Below, one piece after another: positions 17,077 through 27,039 of a stretch of 36,060 bases of DNA (position 1 is the first letter of the stretch; every line of letters begins with the position of its first letter). Both the position numbers and the translations under genes were made by a program. The stretch is from positions 1-36,060 of IMG/VR virus record IMGVR_UViG_3300023104_000015. One strand, 5' to 3'. The notes beneath the pieces are model-generated. The model saw only the letters and a list, made by a program, of their open reading frames with translations. It was not told the DNA's origin and searched no databases. Source of the DNA: a virus.

Positions 17077-17242
17077 AAGGGATATACTTAGCCTTTAGGT
17101 CATGAGCCATCTTCTTTGCAGCACGCTTGGCATTTCCCTTTGACCAGTACTTTTGACTGACGGTTAGAATGCGTCCATTACGGCTCTCAATGGTGTAGTA
17201 GAAACGGAACTTACCTCGGATCAAAAATACTGTATGTGACAT
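17069..17242 (-). CDS. DUF1508/YegP-like protein, copy A (57 aa)
   Basis: A 57-aa single-repeat protein with FRFYYTIESRNGRILTVSQK and WSKGNAKRAAKKMAHDLKAK. The layout matches the DUF1508 (YegP) repeat: beta strand, N-G turn, beta strand, then a helix. It is a clear paralogue of 21688-21861, which has the same length and an almost identical helix (AAKKMAHDLK). GAGGTG precedes the start. Function of this family is unsettled. Confidence 0.8.
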   Translation of the reverse strand: MSHTVFLIRGKFRFYYTIESRNGRILTVSQKYWSKGNAKRAAKKMAHDLKAKYIPYE

Positions 17243-17444: not shown

Positions 17445-17623
17445 TACTTATTCGCTTCCTCTTCATTTAATAATCTTGCTCTGTGTTCTAGTATTGAATA
17501 TGATCTTTGCTGAACATATACCAGAAGCTCGTTAGATAGTTTGTACAGACTCTTGTCTAGTGACTTCATCCTGCGTACCATCTTTCTGGTTGGTTCGTCG
17601 TCTGTGTATTGTTGGTGTCTCAT
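17444..17623 (-). CDS. Small helical basic protein, 59 aa
   Basis: A 60-codon ORF between two recognised genes, starting at the ATG at 17621-17623, with an ATGA overlap upstream and TAATG downstream. The product (MRHQQYTDDEPTRKM...) is Arg/Lys/Leu-rich and helical, ending RLLNEEEANK. Unknown role. Confidence 0.65.
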   Translation of the reverse strand: MRHQQYTDDEPTRKMVRRMKSLDKSLYKLSNELLVYVQQRSYSILEHRARLLNEEEANK

Positions 17624-17982
17624 GATAGTACTGTCACCAGTTCTCCATTTACTTCTTTAATCATTACTTTCGGTTTTACAATGCTAGCAGTTATGTCGTT
17701 ATTGGATAGTCGCTGTGTCTCGGCCTTGTAACGCTTTGTACGACGTCTTAGTGCGTTAGCTGAGTATTCGATCAAACCTAGCTCATGAAGACGCCTACGC
17801 GCCCTGGCAACCGTCTCGCTGTGCATTACATGACTTAGGTTGTAGTAGAGACTATTAGATTGGCTCCATCCCTGTGATAACCACACCGCTTCAAGTAATT
17901 TTGCTTCGTCGTTCTGTACTCCTTCGTTTGCACGAATTACCTTGAGTACATACTGTTCATTCTTAGTAAGGTGTTTGTCCAT
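17620..17982 (-). CDS. Winged-helix-type DNA-binding protein
   Basis: A 120-aa protein with a helix (TKNEQYVLKVIRANEG) and a recognition-type segment, HSETVARARRRLHELGLIEYSANAL (split by reading, about 53-77). This resembles winged-helix phage regulators, in which a helix-turn-helix precedes a small beta wing. It is the best candidate transcription regulator seen, and it lies early in the leftward operon below a strong promoter. It may switch early to late transcription (inference). Confidence 0.7.
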   Translation of the reverse strand: MDKHLTKNEQYVLKVIRANEGVQNDEAKLLEAVWLSQGWSQSNSLYYNLSHVMHSETVARARRRLHELGLIEYSANALRRRTKRYKAETQRLSNNDITASIVKPKVMIKEVNGELVTVLS

Positions 17983-18224
17983 TAGTAGCTCTTGTCTTGA
18001 ATAGCTTCGTCTTCCTCAACAGCGTGTGCGAGGTCTGTACGAGCTTCTTCGTTATCTTGAACTACTTTATAAAAGGCTTGGTCTAGTTGCCATGAGTAGC
18101 TTGATACGTCGTCAAATGACAGGTTGCTGGTTTCTTGTACGATTACTTCACCATCTTCATCTACTGCTTGGAGGATAAAGGTTACTCCGTGATCTTGAAT
18201 ATATTTGTCTGCTAGTTCTTGCAT
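17982..18224 (-). CDS. Small acidic protein, 80 aa
   Basis: An 80-aa strongly acidic protein, first gene after the promoter at 18252-18280, with an AAAGGAA ribosome site. Acidic early proteins of this size can mimic DNA or block host enzymes, but that is speculation. It ends with a one-base overlap on the regulator gene. Confidence 0.65.
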   Translation of the reverse strand: MQELADKYIQDHGVTFILQAVDEDGEVIVQETSNLSFDDVSSYSWQLDQAFYKVVQDNEEARTDLAHAVEEDEAIQDKSY

Positions 18225-18251
18225 ATTGGTTCCTTTCGAGGTTATGTACTA

Positions 18252-22069: not shown

Positions 22070-22221
22070 TTTTTACCTCTTTTTACACGTTTATTGCGAA
22101 GCTTTTTTGTGTACTTCTGCGGAGATTTTTCGAACGGCACTTCTATAATATGAACACCTGATAATTCCCTATAAAGACCATTTTTGTCTGGTTGCCAGTC
22201 TAAGTGGGGGGAGTTAGTCAT
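22066..22221 (-). CDS. Small basic protein, 51 aa
   Basis: A 52-codon ORF beginning at the ATG at 22219-22221, inside the end of the Thg1-like gene, with an ATGA junction to the next gene. Product (MTNSPHLDWQPDKNG...) has a Lys/Arg-rich tail (KLRNKRVKRGKK). Translation by coupling is likely. Unknown role. Confidence 0.6.
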   Translation of the reverse strand: MTNSPHLDWQPDKNGLYRELSGVHIIEVPFEKSPQKYTKKLRNKRVKRGKK

Positions 22222-22879
22222 TAGGTTCCTCAATTAATTCTGGTAACGATTCATATGTGTGTTTGAGGTGGTTCTTGCCGTATATTGTAATGAATGTACC
22301 GTTTTTGAGTTGGTCATTATATTTCGCCCAGTTAATACCCTTTTCGTGCAACATTTCATGTAAGTCTGGTATCTTCTTATTGTTGCACTCTTTGTGACTA
22401 AAGTGCGCCCTTGCGAGCATTTGGATACTATTTCTTTCCCAGTCCCGTTGTCGCCATATAAAGACGTTCTGCCAGTCGTCTATAGGCACTACGAACGCCC
22501 TACTATCGAACAGAGCATTATTTGAACCATAGTGCTTATTAAAGTAAGCTGTAAACATCGCAGCAGATAAAGACACAATCTTATTCAGTTCATAGCCAAA
22601 CCAGCCTTGAGTTTGTAATGAGTCAAAGTCCGTAAGCATGAAAGTGCATTCATCGGACTGAACATATGCGAGCTTAAAGCCCATCATCTCTTTTGAAGTA
22701 TCTTCCGCAGCACTAACCATTGAATCTATAAGCTTCTGGTCAAACGGTTTCTCACAACCTCTAGTGAAAGAGTGAAAAGCTTTCCCGTCTACACGAATAA
22801 ACAGATGGGAGCGTGGTGTAAACTTGTGGTCATACACTTTCTCATACCTCTTAATTCTATCGCCCAGATTATCGTTCAT
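22214..22879 (-). CDS. Thg1-like tRNA(His) guanylyltransferase / 3'-5' polymerase
   Basis: A 221-aa protein with the Thg1 family signature: FIRVDGKAFHSFTRG with metal-binding Asp (about 27-41), KPFDQKLIDSM, then YVQSDECTFML with the paired Asp-Glu (about 73-83). FDSRAFVVPIDDWQNVFIWR and QRDWERNSIQML follow, at the place of the eukaryotic HxxxLYN-type motif. Family members add nucleotides in the 3'-to-5' direction, repairing or extending 5' ends of tRNA. A strong AAGGAG site precedes the start. Whether this one repairs host tRNAs cut by phage defence, acts on His-tRNA or processes another RNA is not shown. Confidence 0.9.
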   Translation of the reverse strand: MNDNLGDRIKRYEKVYDHKFTPRSHLFIRVDGKAFHSFTRGCEKPFDQKLIDSMVSAAEDTSKEMMGFKLAYVQSDECTFMLTDFDSLQTQGWFGYELNKIVSLSAAMFTAYFNKHYGSNNALFDSRAFVVPIDDWQNVFIWRQRDWERNSIQMLARAHFSHKECNNKKIPDLHEMLHEKGINWAKYNDQLKNGTFITIYGKNHLKHTYESLPELIEEPND

Positions 22880-22902: not shown

Positions 22903-23079
22903 TTAGACATTAGCTTCCTCTTCTGGTGTCCAATATTTAAACGGCATTTCGTGGATATAGCCTATAATCTGGTCATCTTGTGACAGATACCTTACTTCTA
23001 CATAGGGCATTTCCTTTGTACCATTGCCCTCAAGGACTGATACAACTTGCACTTTATATGTTTCCCGTAAATTATCCAT
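22903..23079 (-). CDS. Small beta-rich protein, 58 aa
   Basis: A 59-codon ORF coupled to the ERF gene by TAATG. It reads MDNLRETYKVQVVSVLEGNG and is mainly beta-strand-prone, with YVEVRYLSQDDQIIGYIHEM in the middle. Alternating polar and aliphatic residues suggest a small barrel. Not recognised. Confidence 0.65.
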   Translation of the reverse strand: MDNLRETYKVQVVSVLEGNGTKEMPYVEVRYLSQDDQIIGYIHEMPFKYWTPEEEANV

Positions 23080-23693
23080 TACTCTTGATTCTCCAAAGCC
23101 ACCGCTACCTCACGCGCTTCTTCAATAGTGTCAATTGATTCCTTACCTATAGCAAACTTAATAAAAGCCTTACGATCATCAATAGATACATAGTTCTGAT
23201 TTATTAGTTCGTTGTTAATATCTCGCTTGGCTTGGGTTAACTGATCCGATTCACCCATAGGACTTGGCCCTGCTTTGGCTTCTTCTGTACGGTTGCGGAT
23301 TTCTTTAGGGGCTTTAGGTTTTACTTGCTCCCCTGCTGCGTCTGCGTCTTCATCAGTAATAAGTCCTAACATGCTCGATAAGCTGTAACGACGTAGGTAT
23401 GTGATTGCGCTTCCCATAACTTGGAAGTCATTCATACTGTTTAATTTAACACCCTGTGGGATGTCTACGGTACTCTCTAGCGTTTCTCCGCTTTCAATGT
23501 GATATAGGATAGTCTTAACGCTATTTCCTGCGAGAGGCTGTGAGTATCCAAGCCCGTGCTTCTGTAGAAGCGGTTTAATGACATCATTAATCTCACCTAG
23601 ATCAGCAAATTTATAGTTGTAACCTTTAGCGTTCTTATAGATGTTTGGGACTTCTTGCTGAAATGCTGCAAGTGCTTTGTATAGTTCTTTCAT
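23079..23693 (-). CDS. erf: ERF-family single-strand annealing protein
   Basis: A 204-aa protein matching ERF-type recombinases of phage P22 and lactococcal phages. The N-terminal two-thirds shows YNYKFADLGEINDVIKPLLQ (about 24-43), the conserved YADL-like core, followed by SAITYLRRYSLSSMLGLITDEDADA (about 97-121, split here by reading), the hallmark region. The tail is charged and variable. It anneals complementary strands during DNA replication and repair, probably together with the NinG-like nuclease and host replication enzymes. It lies early in the operon. Confidence 0.9.
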   Translation of the reverse strand: MKELYKALAAFQQEVPNIYKNAKGYNYKFADLGEINDVIKPLLQKHGLGYSQPLAGNSVKTILYHIESGETLESTVDIPQGVKLNSMNDFQVMGSAITYLRRYSLSSMLGLITDEDADAAGEQVKPKAPKEIRNRTEEAKAGPSPMGESDQLTQAKRDINNELINQNYVSIDDRKAFIKFAIGKESIDTIEEAREVAVALENQE

Positions 23694-23920
23694 TATTTAG
23701 ATTCCTTAATTCTTACTTGGTTGATATGAACAATTGATTCTTCTTTGTTACCATCGAATATGATGGCAATTTGCTGTTTATAGAAACGATTGCGGTGTTT
23801 AATCGTTCGGACTACAGTTCCCGATTTTACTCGTGTCATTCTGTTCTTACCAATAGCGTGTGTGTAATACCAGTCAACACGTATTCCTGGTGCTAAATAA
23901 GCTAGTCCACTATCGTTCAT
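23693..23920 (-). CDS. Hypothetical basic beta-rich protein, 75 aa
   Basis: A 75-aa protein with HAIGKNRMTRVKSGTVVRTI and FYKQQIAIIFDGNKEESIVHI, an SH3-like beta pattern. It begins at a TAATG junction and ends where the ERF gene begins. A single-strand or RNA-binding fold is possible but not shown. Confidence 0.65.
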   Translation of the reverse strand: MNDSGLAYLAPGIRVDWYYTHAIGKNRMTRVKSGTVVRTIKHRNRFYKQQIAIIFDGNKEESIVHINQVRIKESK

Positions 23921-24006
23921 TATGACCTCGGTACGATCGTATAAGTTTGACCGTCTGTAGTTCCTAGTGGGTGGTACGAACTAATAAATGTTACGTTAAT
24001 TTCCAT
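23920..24006 (-). CDS. Operon leader micro-protein, 28 aa
   Basis: A 29-codon ORF, the first after the promoter at 24034-24062, with AAAGGAA as ribosome site and TAATG into the next gene. It reads MEINVTFISSYHPLGTTDG. Being first in the operon with a good ribosome site supports translation. Function unknown; it may simply improve translation of the following gene. Confidence 0.6.
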   Translation of the reverse strand: MEINVTFISSYHPLGTTDGQTYTIVPRS

Positions 24007-24033
24007 GTTGATTCCTTTCGTTAATCTACATCT

Positions 24034-24062
24034 ATTGTATCATTCGCTTACTGAATATGCAA
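24034..24062 (-). promoter_or_regulatory. Leftward promoter of the ERF/Thg1/NinG operon
   Basis: TTGCAT (24062-24057), a 17-bp spacer and TACAAT (24039-24034) with TGA in the extended -10. The spacer has ATTCGCTTACTG in plus orientation (24042-24053). It stands back to back with the plus-strand promoter at 24067-24095, separated by four bases. Confidence 0.85.
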
Positions 24063-24066
24063 TACC

Positions 24067-24095
24067 TATACAAACATGAAATAATCTGCTATAGT
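24067..24095 (+). promoter_or_regulatory. Plus-strand promoter for a small RNA
   Basis: TATACA (24067-24072), a 17-bp spacer and TATAGT (24090-24095) preceded by TGC (extended -10). The predicted start near 24101 coincides with the first base pairs of the structured RNA. Confidence 0.75.
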
Positions 24096-24099
24096 TTCT

Positions 24100-24203
24100 G
24101 TAGAACTGGTGGTAATTATCTTTTACGGCGTGCCCACCTCGTCGTATCATGTTGGTTCTTTCGAGCCGCCAGTCTACAATGAGACTCTTCGGAGTCTTTT
24201 TTG
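24100..24203 (+). ncRNA. Structured small RNA, about 100 nt
   Basis: Seen directly: a long closing stem of 12 pairs with one bulged A (GTAG at 24100-24103 with CTAC at 24174-24177, ACTGGTGG at 24105-24112 with CCGCCAGT at 24166-24173, one wobble). Inside, a 7-bp arm pairs TACGGCG (24124-24130) with CGTCGTA (24140-24146), and a short arm pairs GGTTC (24154-24158) with GAGCC (24163-24167). A UUCG-loop terminator follows. The shape is a closed multi-helix junction, not a tRNA: no T-loop of the right size. Candidate roles: a regulatory RNA, an antisense RNA, or a decoy for a host defence. Function unknown. Confidence 0.8.
24182..24203 (+). terminator. UUCG-loop Rho-independent terminator of the small RNA
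   Basis: AGACTC, loop TTCG, GAGTCT, followed by a run of six T. Perfect 6-bp stem. Only the plus strand carries the T-run, so the small RNA is transcribed rightward. Confidence 0.9.
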
Positions 24204-24448
24204 TTATTGCATTCTTCTTACGCTTACTGTATTGTTCAAGTATTGGCTCGTCTTCCTCCACAAAGCAGGCTAACGTACTTTCCAAGGGCCGATAACCCTT
24301 TAGAGACTTATACCCTCTACTCACATAAACATTAGAACGCTCTACGGCTCACTACTGGGGGCGTTTCTTTTGTGGTAAACTATTAGTATTCATCTTGTAT
24401 GAAAGCACTTGTCGCTAACGCTTGATTTGATGTCGATGTTAGCCGTAT
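24204..24448. other. No confident gene; weak plus-strand signals
   Basis: The only sizeable minus ORF here (24040-24324, GTG start) has no ribosome site and overlaps both back-to-back promoters and the small RNA, so I do not call it. On the plus strand AACGCTC pairs with GGGCGTT followed by TCTTTT (about 24337-24370), terminator-like. A weak extended -10 (TGGTAAACT, 24373-24381) then precedes a GCTAAC/GTTAGC hairpin (24414-24443). A second small RNA ending at 24477 is possible. Confidence 0.4.
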
Positions 24449-24449
24449 T

Positions 24450-24477
24450 AATAGCCCGCAAGGGTTATTTTTATTTT
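24450..24477 (+). terminator. Plus-strand terminator with GCAA loop
   Basis: AATAGCCC and GGGTTATT form an 8-bp stem (one wobble) around GCAA, followed by TTTATTTT. It would stop rightward transcription from 24.38 kb or readthrough of the small RNA, before the control region. Confidence 0.75.
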
Positions 24478-24518
24478 GGGTTGAAATCATGCTGCTTATG
24501 TCGTATAGTGATAAGTAA

Positions 24519-24547
24519 CTATTTGATCTTCTTGCGAAGTTAAATAG
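24519..24547. repeat. Two-tier hairpin in the leftward leader
   Basis: CTATTT (24519-24524) pairs with AAATAG (24542-24547) outside an inner CTTC/GAAG stem. Lies just downstream of the attenuator-like terminator for leftward transcription. Confidence 0.5.
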
Positions 24548-24573
24548 GGCGGTACAAATAATTTAGGGTTTAG

Positions 24574-24596
24574 AAAACCCCGACGTAATATCGGGG
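24574..24596 (-). terminator. Attenuator-like terminator after early promoter
   Basis: On the minus strand CCCCGA, a 7-base loop and TCGGGG are followed by TTTTCT. It lies about 14-36 bases after the predicted transcript start of the promoter at 24617-24645, so most transcripts would end within 40 nt unless an antiterminator acts. Confidence 0.75.
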
Positions 24597-24616
24597 CTGA
24601 TCTTCTTGCTACTTCA

Positions 24617-24645
24617 ATAGTATCAAATATCTTGTGTTTGTGCAA
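24617..24645 (-). promoter_or_regulatory. Near-consensus leftward promoter
   Basis: TTGCAC (24645-24640), a 17-bp spacer and TACTAT (24622-24617). It faces a strong terminator only a few tens of bases downstream. No protein gene is confidently called before 24006, so it may make a very short RNA or a regulated readthrough transcript. Confidence 0.75.
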
Positions 24646-24773
24646 CAGTCTGGGGAGTCGCTGACGTATGCCTTTAGTTGGACTTAAATGAACTATAAAT
24701 GCGCTCAACCTTTTAGGATGTGGTAAATCCTGCTTTTGTACTGAAGTATGAGAGAATAACAATATAGATACCT

Positions 24774-25023
24774 TAACAATTTGGAACTATGTTATAGATA
24801 ATAACAATTAAAGGTATTTATGAGCTTATATCTAGTATATTATCTGAAGTCGGTAGTCTGAGAGAACAGCGCAAATACACAACTATTAACAAATTATTGT
24901 GTATAACAAACTCGATAGTAAGGAAGTAGCTGCAACTTACAAGCTCTTATATACCTTTAATAAATAGTTAACTAGTCCTAATAGAATAACGACGACGCTT
25001 AATACATAATATCGAGTTTCGAT
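24774..25023. other. AT-rich control region with repeats, possible replication origin
   Basis: No gene is visible. Direct repeats of TAACAATT lie at 24774-24781 and 24802-24809. GTTAT and ATAAC form a dyad at 24791-24805, and ATCGA-GTT-TCGAT lies at 25011-25023. The large inverted repeat at 24807-24961 is listed separately. The AT content and clustered dyads resemble phage origins and operator regions, but this is inference. Confidence 0.45.
24807..24961. repeat. 21-bp inverted repeat enclosing a 113-base loop with inner hairpins
   Basis: The arm at 24807-24827 pairs with 24941-24961 at 19 of 21 positions. Inside are ATACACAA/TTGTGTAT (24875-24882 with 24897-24904) and GTAAG/CTTAC (24918-24922 with 24936-24940). 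No T-run follows on either strand, so it could be an RNA, an origin or a protein-binding dyad. Confidence 0.75.
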
Positions 25024-25116
25024 TGATTAAGAGATTTCGCCACACTTCAGGGAATAGCTTCAGTATTAACTCCCCTCCGTTGTTACGGAAGCAAGAAGGG
25101 AGTGCTTAGAGTGCCG

Positions 25117-25125
25117 TGTTATAAT
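25117..25125 (+). promoter_or_regulatory. Extended -10 promoter for the plus-strand gene
   Basis: TGTTATAAT is a perfect extended -10 box. There is no recognisable -35 box. It lies 29 bases before the start codon of the only plus-strand protein gene. A hairpin (CTCCC/GGGAG with inner CCGT/ACGG, 25070-25102) just upstream may be regulatory. Confidence 0.65.
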
Positions 25126-25154
25126 TAAGGTACAGTAACCTTTAAGGAGCACAC

Positions 25155-25337
25155 ATGAGTTTAATTGTTGTAATCTTATCAGTAGCATTAACAGGACTAG
25201 TAGCATTCCTAGCGTTAGACCACTTTCTAAGCCGTTGTGGGGTGAATGAACGGACTTCTTTTGTATCAAGTATTATCTTTGGTATTGTATGTGCTTTATT
25301 CCTTACAATAGCTGCAGGACGCTTTCTACTAAGTTAA
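25155..25337 (+). CDS. Two-helix membrane protein, 60 aa (only plus-strand protein gene)
   Basis: A 60-aa protein starting at ATG 25155 with AAGGAG (25144-25149) upstream. Two membrane helices span about 2-21 and 37-57, joined by a short polar loop with Cys, Arg and Glu (FLSRCGVNERTS). The gene has its own promoter and a terminator. Being the one gene opposed to all others, it may be a separate lysogeny-independent module such as superinfection exclusion, an anti-holin or a host-membrane toxin. Nothing in the sequence decides among these. Confidence 0.8.
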   Translation: MSLIVVILSVALTGLVAFLALDHFLSRCGVNERTSFVSSIIFGIVCALFLTIAAGRFLLS

Positions 25338-25378
25338 AATAGCTAGGTACTTCGGTACTACCACTTGTGTAGAGAAAC

Positions 25379-25418
25379 AAATAAGCCCCTCGTATTACGC
25401 GAAGGGCGTTTCTTATTT
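25379..25418. terminator. Bidirectional terminator after the plus-strand gene
   Basis: GCCCCTCG and CGAAGGGC pair (one mismatch) at 25385-25407, with flanking AAATAAG and CTTATTT. T-rich runs on both sides let it act on either strand. It separates the plus gene from the convergent minus-strand gene at 25.5-25.8 kb. Confidence 0.7.
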
Positions 25419-25478
25419 GCTTAGATAGCGCAACATCGAAGCTGTACTTACATTATACCATGCCTAAGATGCACAGAA

Positions 25479-26039: not shown

Positions 26040-26252
26040 CTATTTAGTTTCTGCTTGGTGTTGAAGACTAGACACTCCAGTAATTACACCCAGGAAGGCA
26101 TTGAGAGCCGCTATAGACAGCGAAACCTCCTGAAGCATAGGAAATCCCCATATTGAACCTAGGGCAAGCCACAGGACGTTTAAAGCGGGTAGAAATATAA
26201 GTGAAACATACTTGAATGTATCGTATAGTTTTGCTGAGTTAATAATAGCCAT
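26040..26252 (-). CDS. Holin, Dp-1 type
   Basis: A 70-aa protein with two membrane helices (about 14-37 and 43-61). LYDTFKYVSLIFLPALNVLW and then LGSIWGFPMLQEVSLSIAAL, LNAFLGVITGVSS fit the phage Dp-1 holin pattern (TYD...LPALxxLY, IWGxP, FLGxxxGISS). It opens the host membrane to let the amidase reach the wall. It lies directly after the amidase gene (1-base gap), as in lysis cassettes. Confidence 0.85.
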   Translation of the reverse strand: MAIINSAKLYDTFKYVSLIFLPALNVLWLALGSIWGFPMLQEVSLSIAALNAFLGVITGVSSLQHQAETK

Positions 26253-26253
26253 G

Positions 26254-27039
26254 TTACTTCTCCTTTTTAATGTATAAATCTGTTACCTTTATATACTCAT
26301 CACTGCTCTTAGGGTAGTTCGGTGCGATATAGCTATACCAGAAGTCTTTCCATAACTTACCTTGCTGAGACTTGGCGTCCTTTTTAACAATGTCGTTAAT
26401 ATTCTTTACATCACCACTATTGATGAATTGCTCGCCTTTGAACTGACTTGATCCAAATATCCAATACATCGCATCACCGTATTCTTTACCTACGGCTTCT
26501 TTGAAGTATCCTAGGTCTTTTAAGAATAGGCCAGTATTAGTGTCTCTGCGGTTATCTTCTGTAAATGTTCGCACTTCATCTCCTTGGTTTATCTTTATTG
26601 CTTTACTTACTATTTCATCAATTGGGATCGTTCCACTGCACTGCGTAGCGTAGGGAACTTCTGAATGCTTAATAACATGTTGACGATCAAGTGGTATACC
26701 ATATTCTTTTGCAATCCTTGCGACAAGAGCAGCAGAATTATCAATTGTAGAAGTTGTAGCTTCCCTTCCTGGGGCAGCCGAGTGTTCTATGCCAATACTT
26801 CTACTGTTCATACTACTAACACCTGCGTGCCAAGCTGTATCGCCTTCGTTTACATATTGATGTATATTGTTATCTTCAATGCCGTAGTGTGCAGATGTCT
26901 TACGTTTGCTGTCTTGAAACACTGCGTCGGTTGCAGCAAGTGTACCTGCCATCCAGTGAATAATAATACGATCTATTTTTGCAGACCTACCACCAGTATA
27001 GTTTGGTGATCCGATCCAAGTTATAGCGTTTGAAGCCAT
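26254..27039 (-). CDS. N-acetylmuramoyl-L-alanine amidase (endolysin)
   Basis: A 261-aa endolysin. The N-terminal 150 residues form an Amidase_2 domain with metal-binding His28 (RIIIHWMAG), a SAHYGIED segment, SIGIEHSA, and a second His and Cys in HSEVPYATQC (about 125 and 134). The C-terminal about 110 residues are unrelated and may bind the cell wall. It cuts the bond between muramic acid and the peptide stem. Together with the holin downstream it forms the lysis pair. Confidence 0.92.
   Translation of the reverse strand: MASNAITWIGSPNYTGGRSAKIDRIIIHWMAGTLAATDAVFQDSKRKTSAHYGIEDNNIHQYVNEGDTAWHAGVSSMNSRSIGIEHSAAPGREATTSTIDNSAALVARIAKEYGIPLDRQHVIKHSEVPYATQCSGTIPIDEIVSKAIKINQGDEVRTFTEDNRRDTNTGLFLKDLGYFKEAVGKEYGDAMYWIFGSSQFKGEQFINSGDVKNINDIVKKDAKSQQGKLWKDFWYSYIAPNYPKSSDEYIKVTDLYIKKEK

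Follow-up and report, generated by a model that had tools for sequence, protein, structure and literature searches.

What does the plus-strand locus at 24067-24203 of the virus record IMGVR_UViG_3300023104_000015 encode, and on what would its product act? The window analysed here is that whole record of 36,060 bases, in which the minus strand carries nearly all genes. A sequence-only reading of the DNA had proposed a structured small RNA with its own promoter and terminator and had suggested three possible roles for it: regulator, antisense RNA or decoy against host defences. Judged from the sequence, the gene for this RNA (RNA1) is real, and RNA1 is very probably a phage-encoded antisense RNA that represses the early translation of more than one target. 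Nothing was found in support of the decoy.

RNA1 and its counterparts in related phages

The following parts were assigned to RNA1.

24067-24095, plus strand: predicted promoter, with -35-like TATACA, a 17-bp spacer and extended -10 TGnTATAGT
24101-24202, plus strand: RNA1, a predicted small RNA of ~102 nt (fold z -3.85), whose location, orientation and stem-closed architecture recur in relatives
24101-24112, plus strand: 5' strand of stem P1, which closes RNA1 and pairs with 24166-24177
24124-24146, plus strand: P2 hairpin of 7 bp with loop UGCCCACCU; CACC-type loops are also found in relatives
24147-24165, plus strand: antisense segment UCAUGUUGGUUCUUUCGAG, with complementarity to both the 24006(-) and the 18224(-) leader
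24166-24178, plus strand: 3' strand of P1, from the fold
24181-24202, plus strand: intrinsic terminator GAGACTC-UUCG-GAGUCUU-UUUU with a UUCG tetraloop, from the sequence

The 17-bp-spaced extended -10 promoter, bulged closing stem, 7-bp arm and UUCG terminator proposed beforehand were thus all recovered in place. Within the promoter, TATACA occupies 24067-24072 and TATAGT occupies 24090-24095 with TG upstream of it, and the -35 element of the early operon 1 promoter (TTGCAT, minus strand, 24057-24062) lies only 4 bp away from that of RNA1, which confirms the back-to-back arrangement. The match to consensus alone was not above chance (6 promoter-like sites against 7.0 +/- 2.5 expected); it is conservation across relatives, not the consensus match, that makes the RNA1 promoter credible, as TGnTAnnnT precedes the assigned start by 9-15 bases in 10/10 RNA1 genes compared and also in an eleventh phage. 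The minimum free energy (MFE) of RNA1 was -34.1 against -22.2 +/- 3.1 for shuffled sequences, with 1/200 shuffles equally good. A further short arm placed inside P1 by the sequence-only reading was only partly formed in the MFE structure, and the region in question is the antisense segment, which is predicted to be more unpaired (0.57-0.80) than the rest of RNA1 (0.30-0.46). No tRNA or tmRNA was detected in the window by ARAGORN, and no Rfam family matched the window at gathering cut-offs or positions 23901-24500 at E <= 10 (cmscan), in agreement with the view that RNA1 is neither a tRNA nor a member of a known family.

Relatives were located via Erf and other genes, and their layout is common to the window. 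Ten related uncultivated phages carry a divergent, stem-closed RNA with an extended -10 in the same place as RNA1; these RNAs read away from the early operon, have a closing stem and, in most cases, a clear terminator. Primary sequence is almost unconserved outside close pairs: the stems are identical in the two close relatives G033 and G036, and the other relatives are too divergent to align. The recurrence of promoter, P1, terminator and antisense match also bears on the reading of the locus as a minus-strand protein gene at 24040-24324 with the RNA features arising by chance. A 94-aa open reading frame (ORF) is indeed open there, but the RNA features recur in relatives that do not have it and no homologue of the protein was found in any related locus, which leaves this reading with next to no probability.

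The window, G001, G002, G004 and G005 have CCCACC within the P2 loop, G033 and G036 have A(U/C)CACC there, and a CACC-type loop is not present in G045, G046 and G048. A search for a target of the CCCACC loop yielded no conserved partner. In G002 (L187 16962-17040), a second CCCACC-loop hairpin with a terminator lies just upstream of a promoter-led gene at 17128, and the leader of that gene is also matched by RNA1 of G002.

Pairing of RNA1 with early leaders

The complementary leaders belong to two operons on the minus strand: early operon 1, which starts at 24006(-) with an ORF of 28 aa followed by Erf, and operon 2, which starts at 18224(-). The features concerned are listed here, the leaders being putative targets.

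24034-24062, minus strand: promoter of early operon 1 (TTGCAT-17-TACAAT), divergent from that of RNA1
24004-24020, minus strand: target leader 1 CGAAAGGAAUCAACAUG, Shine-Dalgarno (SD) to AUG, predicted duplex -20.4 kcal/mol
23920-24006, minus strand: 28-aa ORF MEINVTFISSYHPLGTTDGQTYTIVPRS, first gene of early operon 1, a conserved short protein
23079-23693, minus strand: Erf-like single-stranded DNA annealing protein, within early operon 1
18222-18240, minus strand: target leader 2 CUCGAAAGGAACCAAUAUG, with its own promoter TTGTTT-17-TACTAT, predicted duplex -23.5 kcal/mol
17982-18224, minus strand: 80-aa ORF MQELADKY..., first gene of operon 2

In the predicted duplex with the first leader, CAUGUUGGUUC-UUUCG of RNA1 lies opposite CGAAAGGAAUCAACAUG, the helix containing a single bulged G and a single G-U pair. 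The 18224(-) leader, which forms 18 pairs with the RNA1 segment with one bulge, was found by ranking all start sites: for the P1-enclosed segment, 18224(-) ranked 1 and 24006(-) ranked 2 among 1273 start sites (the site on RNA1's own opposite strand being left out), and the next-best site reached -16.6 kcal/mol. Ranking by the full-length RNA1 duplex was uninformative because its GC-rich stems dominate, and segment-only ranking was used instead. Gapped local-alignment shuffles gave weaker p values for single phages, from 0.29 to <0.001. At both target sites the promoter sits 14 nt before GAAAGG, and the predicted 5' ends of the target mRNAs lie near 24027 and 18247 (-), which gives 5' untranslated regions of ~20 nt. 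RNA1 (24101-24202) lies on the strand opposite both targets and overlaps neither predicted mRNA. The proposal of a regulatory or antisense function is strongly supported at the level of sequence, with the leaders at 24006(-) and 18224(-) as candidate targets.

Leaders vary between phages, and the RNA1 segment varies in step. In a comparison of nine phages, the cognate pairing between small RNA (sRNA) and leader was unmatched by any of 50,000 permutations and was the best in 8/9 rows; in a separate permutation run, 2 of 200,000 reached it. The same permutation controls showed nothing for the reverse complement (p 0.26), the reversed sequence (p 0.30) or the rest of RNA1 (p 0.71). Most phages contain at least two promoter-led genes with similar leaders (five in G048), and the RNA1 matches in relatives allow bulges and are rich in G-U wobbles.

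A prospective case was provided by the eleventh phage, on a contig designated L279. Its leader AAUGAAAGGUUAGAUAUG was known, and the antisense 'ATATCTAACCTTTCATT' was predicted before the upstream DNA was fetched. That DNA contained ATATCTAGTCTTTCATTG within a divergent RNA that has an extended -10, P1, a terminator and a P2 hairpin with the C-rich hexaloop CUCCAC. The L279 segment AUAUCUAGUCUUUCAUUG forms 18 predicted pairs with each of two leaders, and these leaders ranked 1 and 2 of 1169 sites (self excluded). Covariation and this prospective test together support the pairing of segment and leader.

Since the SD itself supplies part of the complementarity, a test with the SD hexamer masked was made, and the cognate preference persisted (p = 0.0017). 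This result speaks to the suggestion that RNA1 is a general anti-SD RNA, or a regulator of ribosomes or host mRNAs, with no specificity for its own leaders. A CCUUUC-like core in nearly every segment and the many C-rich P2 loops would fit such a role; however, specificity extends beyond the SD and cognate leaders are top-ranked among all start sites, and we regard a general role as improbable.

Alternatively, the repeated sequence could be a DNA operator for a phage repressor, present just downstream of several early promoters and inside the RNA1 gene, with the RNA incidental. In its favour, all matching leaders lie just after promoters (up to five promoters in G048). We nevertheless consider it improbable. 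Every RNA1 copy is in the antisense orientation and the sense-orientation control was null; the copy always lies in a loop that P1 closes, in an RNA that has no ORF, and the match extends from SD to AUG. Bulges of 1-2 nt and wobble-type changes are likewise not expected for DNA-binding proteins.

Several observations nevertheless weigh against RNA1 as an antisense repressor. G036 ranks its own leader only 6-7 of 9 and the pairing in G004 spans just 8-10 bp; in G005 the CCCACC hairpin does not share a stem-loop with the antisense stretch, and the two may even belong to different RNAs. Except in the prospective L279 case, we set the limits of leaders and segments once the pattern had already been noticed. 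Finally, the production of RNA1, its pairing in the cell and the sign of regulation (repression) are all matters that we infer.

Repression by RNA1 could proceed as follows. RNA1 would be transcribed from its own extended -10 promoter beside the main early promoter and end at the intrinsic terminator, with P1 predicted to hold the antisense segment in a loop. The segment would then pair with 17-18 bases in each of two early mRNAs, a stretch that takes in both the Shine-Dalgarno and the start codon, so that 30S binding would be blocked and the duplex perhaps cut. Because each leader is only ~20 nt long and the pairing covers both SD and AUG, repression is the likeliest outcome. Building up with early transcription, RNA1 may act on the lead gene of the Erf operon and that of the second operon as a limiter or shut-off, capping or ending their translation; in a lysogen, if one exists, it could confer c4-like immunity. 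The opposite scheme, in which early mRNA leaders act as a sponge that titrates RNA1 and frees another target, draws on the lack of a target for the P2 CACC loop, which makes a second function possible. Yet a duplex that spans SD and AUG has the classical geometry of repression, and no other conserved target was found, so a sponge or activator role has only a slim chance of being correct.

Neighbouring RNAs and genome setting

The stretch 24000-25460 is mostly noncoding and holds further candidate RNAs. RNA2 (24207-24373; promoter TTGCAT-17-TATTGT, ~130 nt, terminator) has counterparts in relatives, in which an unpaired stretch ahead of the terminator is conserved as UUAUACCUCyCUAUUCAUAAC or AAAUAAACAUUA; a search for RNA2 targets gave none that was convincing. 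RNA3 (+; promoter 24481-24509, start ~24516) and RNA4 (-; ~24610 to 24560, with a hairpin terminator and promoter TTGCAC-17-TACTAT) share 11-13 bp of complementarity at GATCTTCTTGC (region 24481-24622). Matching pairs with other sequences are present in seven other phages compared, with RNA4 on the minus or the plus strand. These segments were picked by eye for complementarity, and the permutation figure of 4 of 100,000 overstates their significance; the RNA3/RNA4 arrangement looks like an antisense-controlled leader. L004/L005 match the noncoding DNA at 24503-24800 (CAACAGTCTGGGGAGTCGCTGACGTATGCC...) with 82% identity across 300 bases, and L302 has part of it, yet the adjacent RNA1 is not alignable in those relatives.

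Neither an integrase nor a repressor turned up among the window genes scanned. As a tentative and rather doubtful idea, these phages might run their early programme mainly via RNA, with RNA1 repressing the leader common to the early operons, the leader RNA3 and the short antisense RNA4 as a second co-varying pair within the same 1 kb of noncoding DNA, and RNA2 as a third conserved RNA, forming an RNA-only control region where a repressor gene would be expected. In operon 2, the gene that follows the 80-aa ORF (17620-17982) has a weak match to phrog_11046, a transcriptional regulator. The 28-aa protein of early operon 1 follows a pattern of roughly MxIxVxxxxSxxPLGTTDGQxYxI that is present in several relatives.

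Terminase, portal and other structural genes come after the operons, and a holin and an endolysin are encoded at 26040-27039. On the strand opposite nearly all genes, a predicted membrane protein of 60 aa (25155-25337, plus strand) has its own promoter and SD, and small hydrophobic ORFs resembling it occupy the equivalent place in G033, G036 and G048. The window also contains a gene for Thg1, the tRNA-His guanylyltransferase (22214-22879, minus strand; PF04446, E 3e-26; phrog_4717, E 5e-84), without any tRNA genes, and Thg1 is absent from the relatives compared. RNA1 was considered as a Thg1 substrate, a possibility rejected on the grounds that RNA1-bearing relatives do not have the guanylyltransferase gene of the window.

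Searching a phage reference collection by DNA and by protein gave no match to the window. A host search with the structural protein A2 yielded no host, and one with terL returned one Arthrobacter contig (structural genes only) and two metagenome-assembled genomes (MAGs). In the MAG containing the L279 phage the 16S bears an insertion, but two 16S contigs are present, and no host is therefore claimed.

Comparison with known regulatory RNAs

Trans-encoded bacterial sRNAs pair imperfectly with several mRNAs at the translation start. RNA1 differs from them in being phage-encoded and adjoining one of its putative targets, and in having a segment that co-evolves with a leader common to the phage's own operons. 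Among phage RNAs, c4 shares a promoter with its target, the ant mRNA, and arises by processing of that transcript, whereas RNA1 is divergent, has its own predicted promoter, lies on the strand opposite its targets and would act on at least two operons; it also has no Rfam match to the c4 family. The sar RNA overlaps its single target gene in full as an antisense RNA, in contrast to RNA1, which has no target overlap and would pair imperfectly over 17-18 bp.

The likeness lies in the proposed mode of action. The c4 RNA of P1/P7, also small and phage-encoded, pairs around the ribosome-binding site (RBS) of a phage gene and so blocks its translation, and its complementary stretches lie in loops (PMC12197685); RNA1 is likewise predicted to be antisense to phage RBSs, with the complementary stretch in a loop. 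The sar RNA of P22 exerts antisense control over synthesis of the phage antirepressor (ant) (PMC12197685). OOP and aQ of lambda are phage-derived small antisense RNAs, and they tune phage developmental genes (PMC12197685); unlike RNA1, both are cis-encoded, overlapping and antisense to single genes.

Antisense RNAs controlling phage development are known from a few temperate model phages. In the family described here, one divergent RNA with a segment co-evolving with a shared leader could silence several early operons at once. For phages that have no cultivated host, this offers a clear and testable example of an sRNA and its mRNAs co-evolving in their pairing, together with a computable signature by which more such RNAs could be found. 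Overall, RNA1 would work like c4 and sar but is not a homologue of either, because it has no Rfam match, its own divergent promoter and several putative targets.
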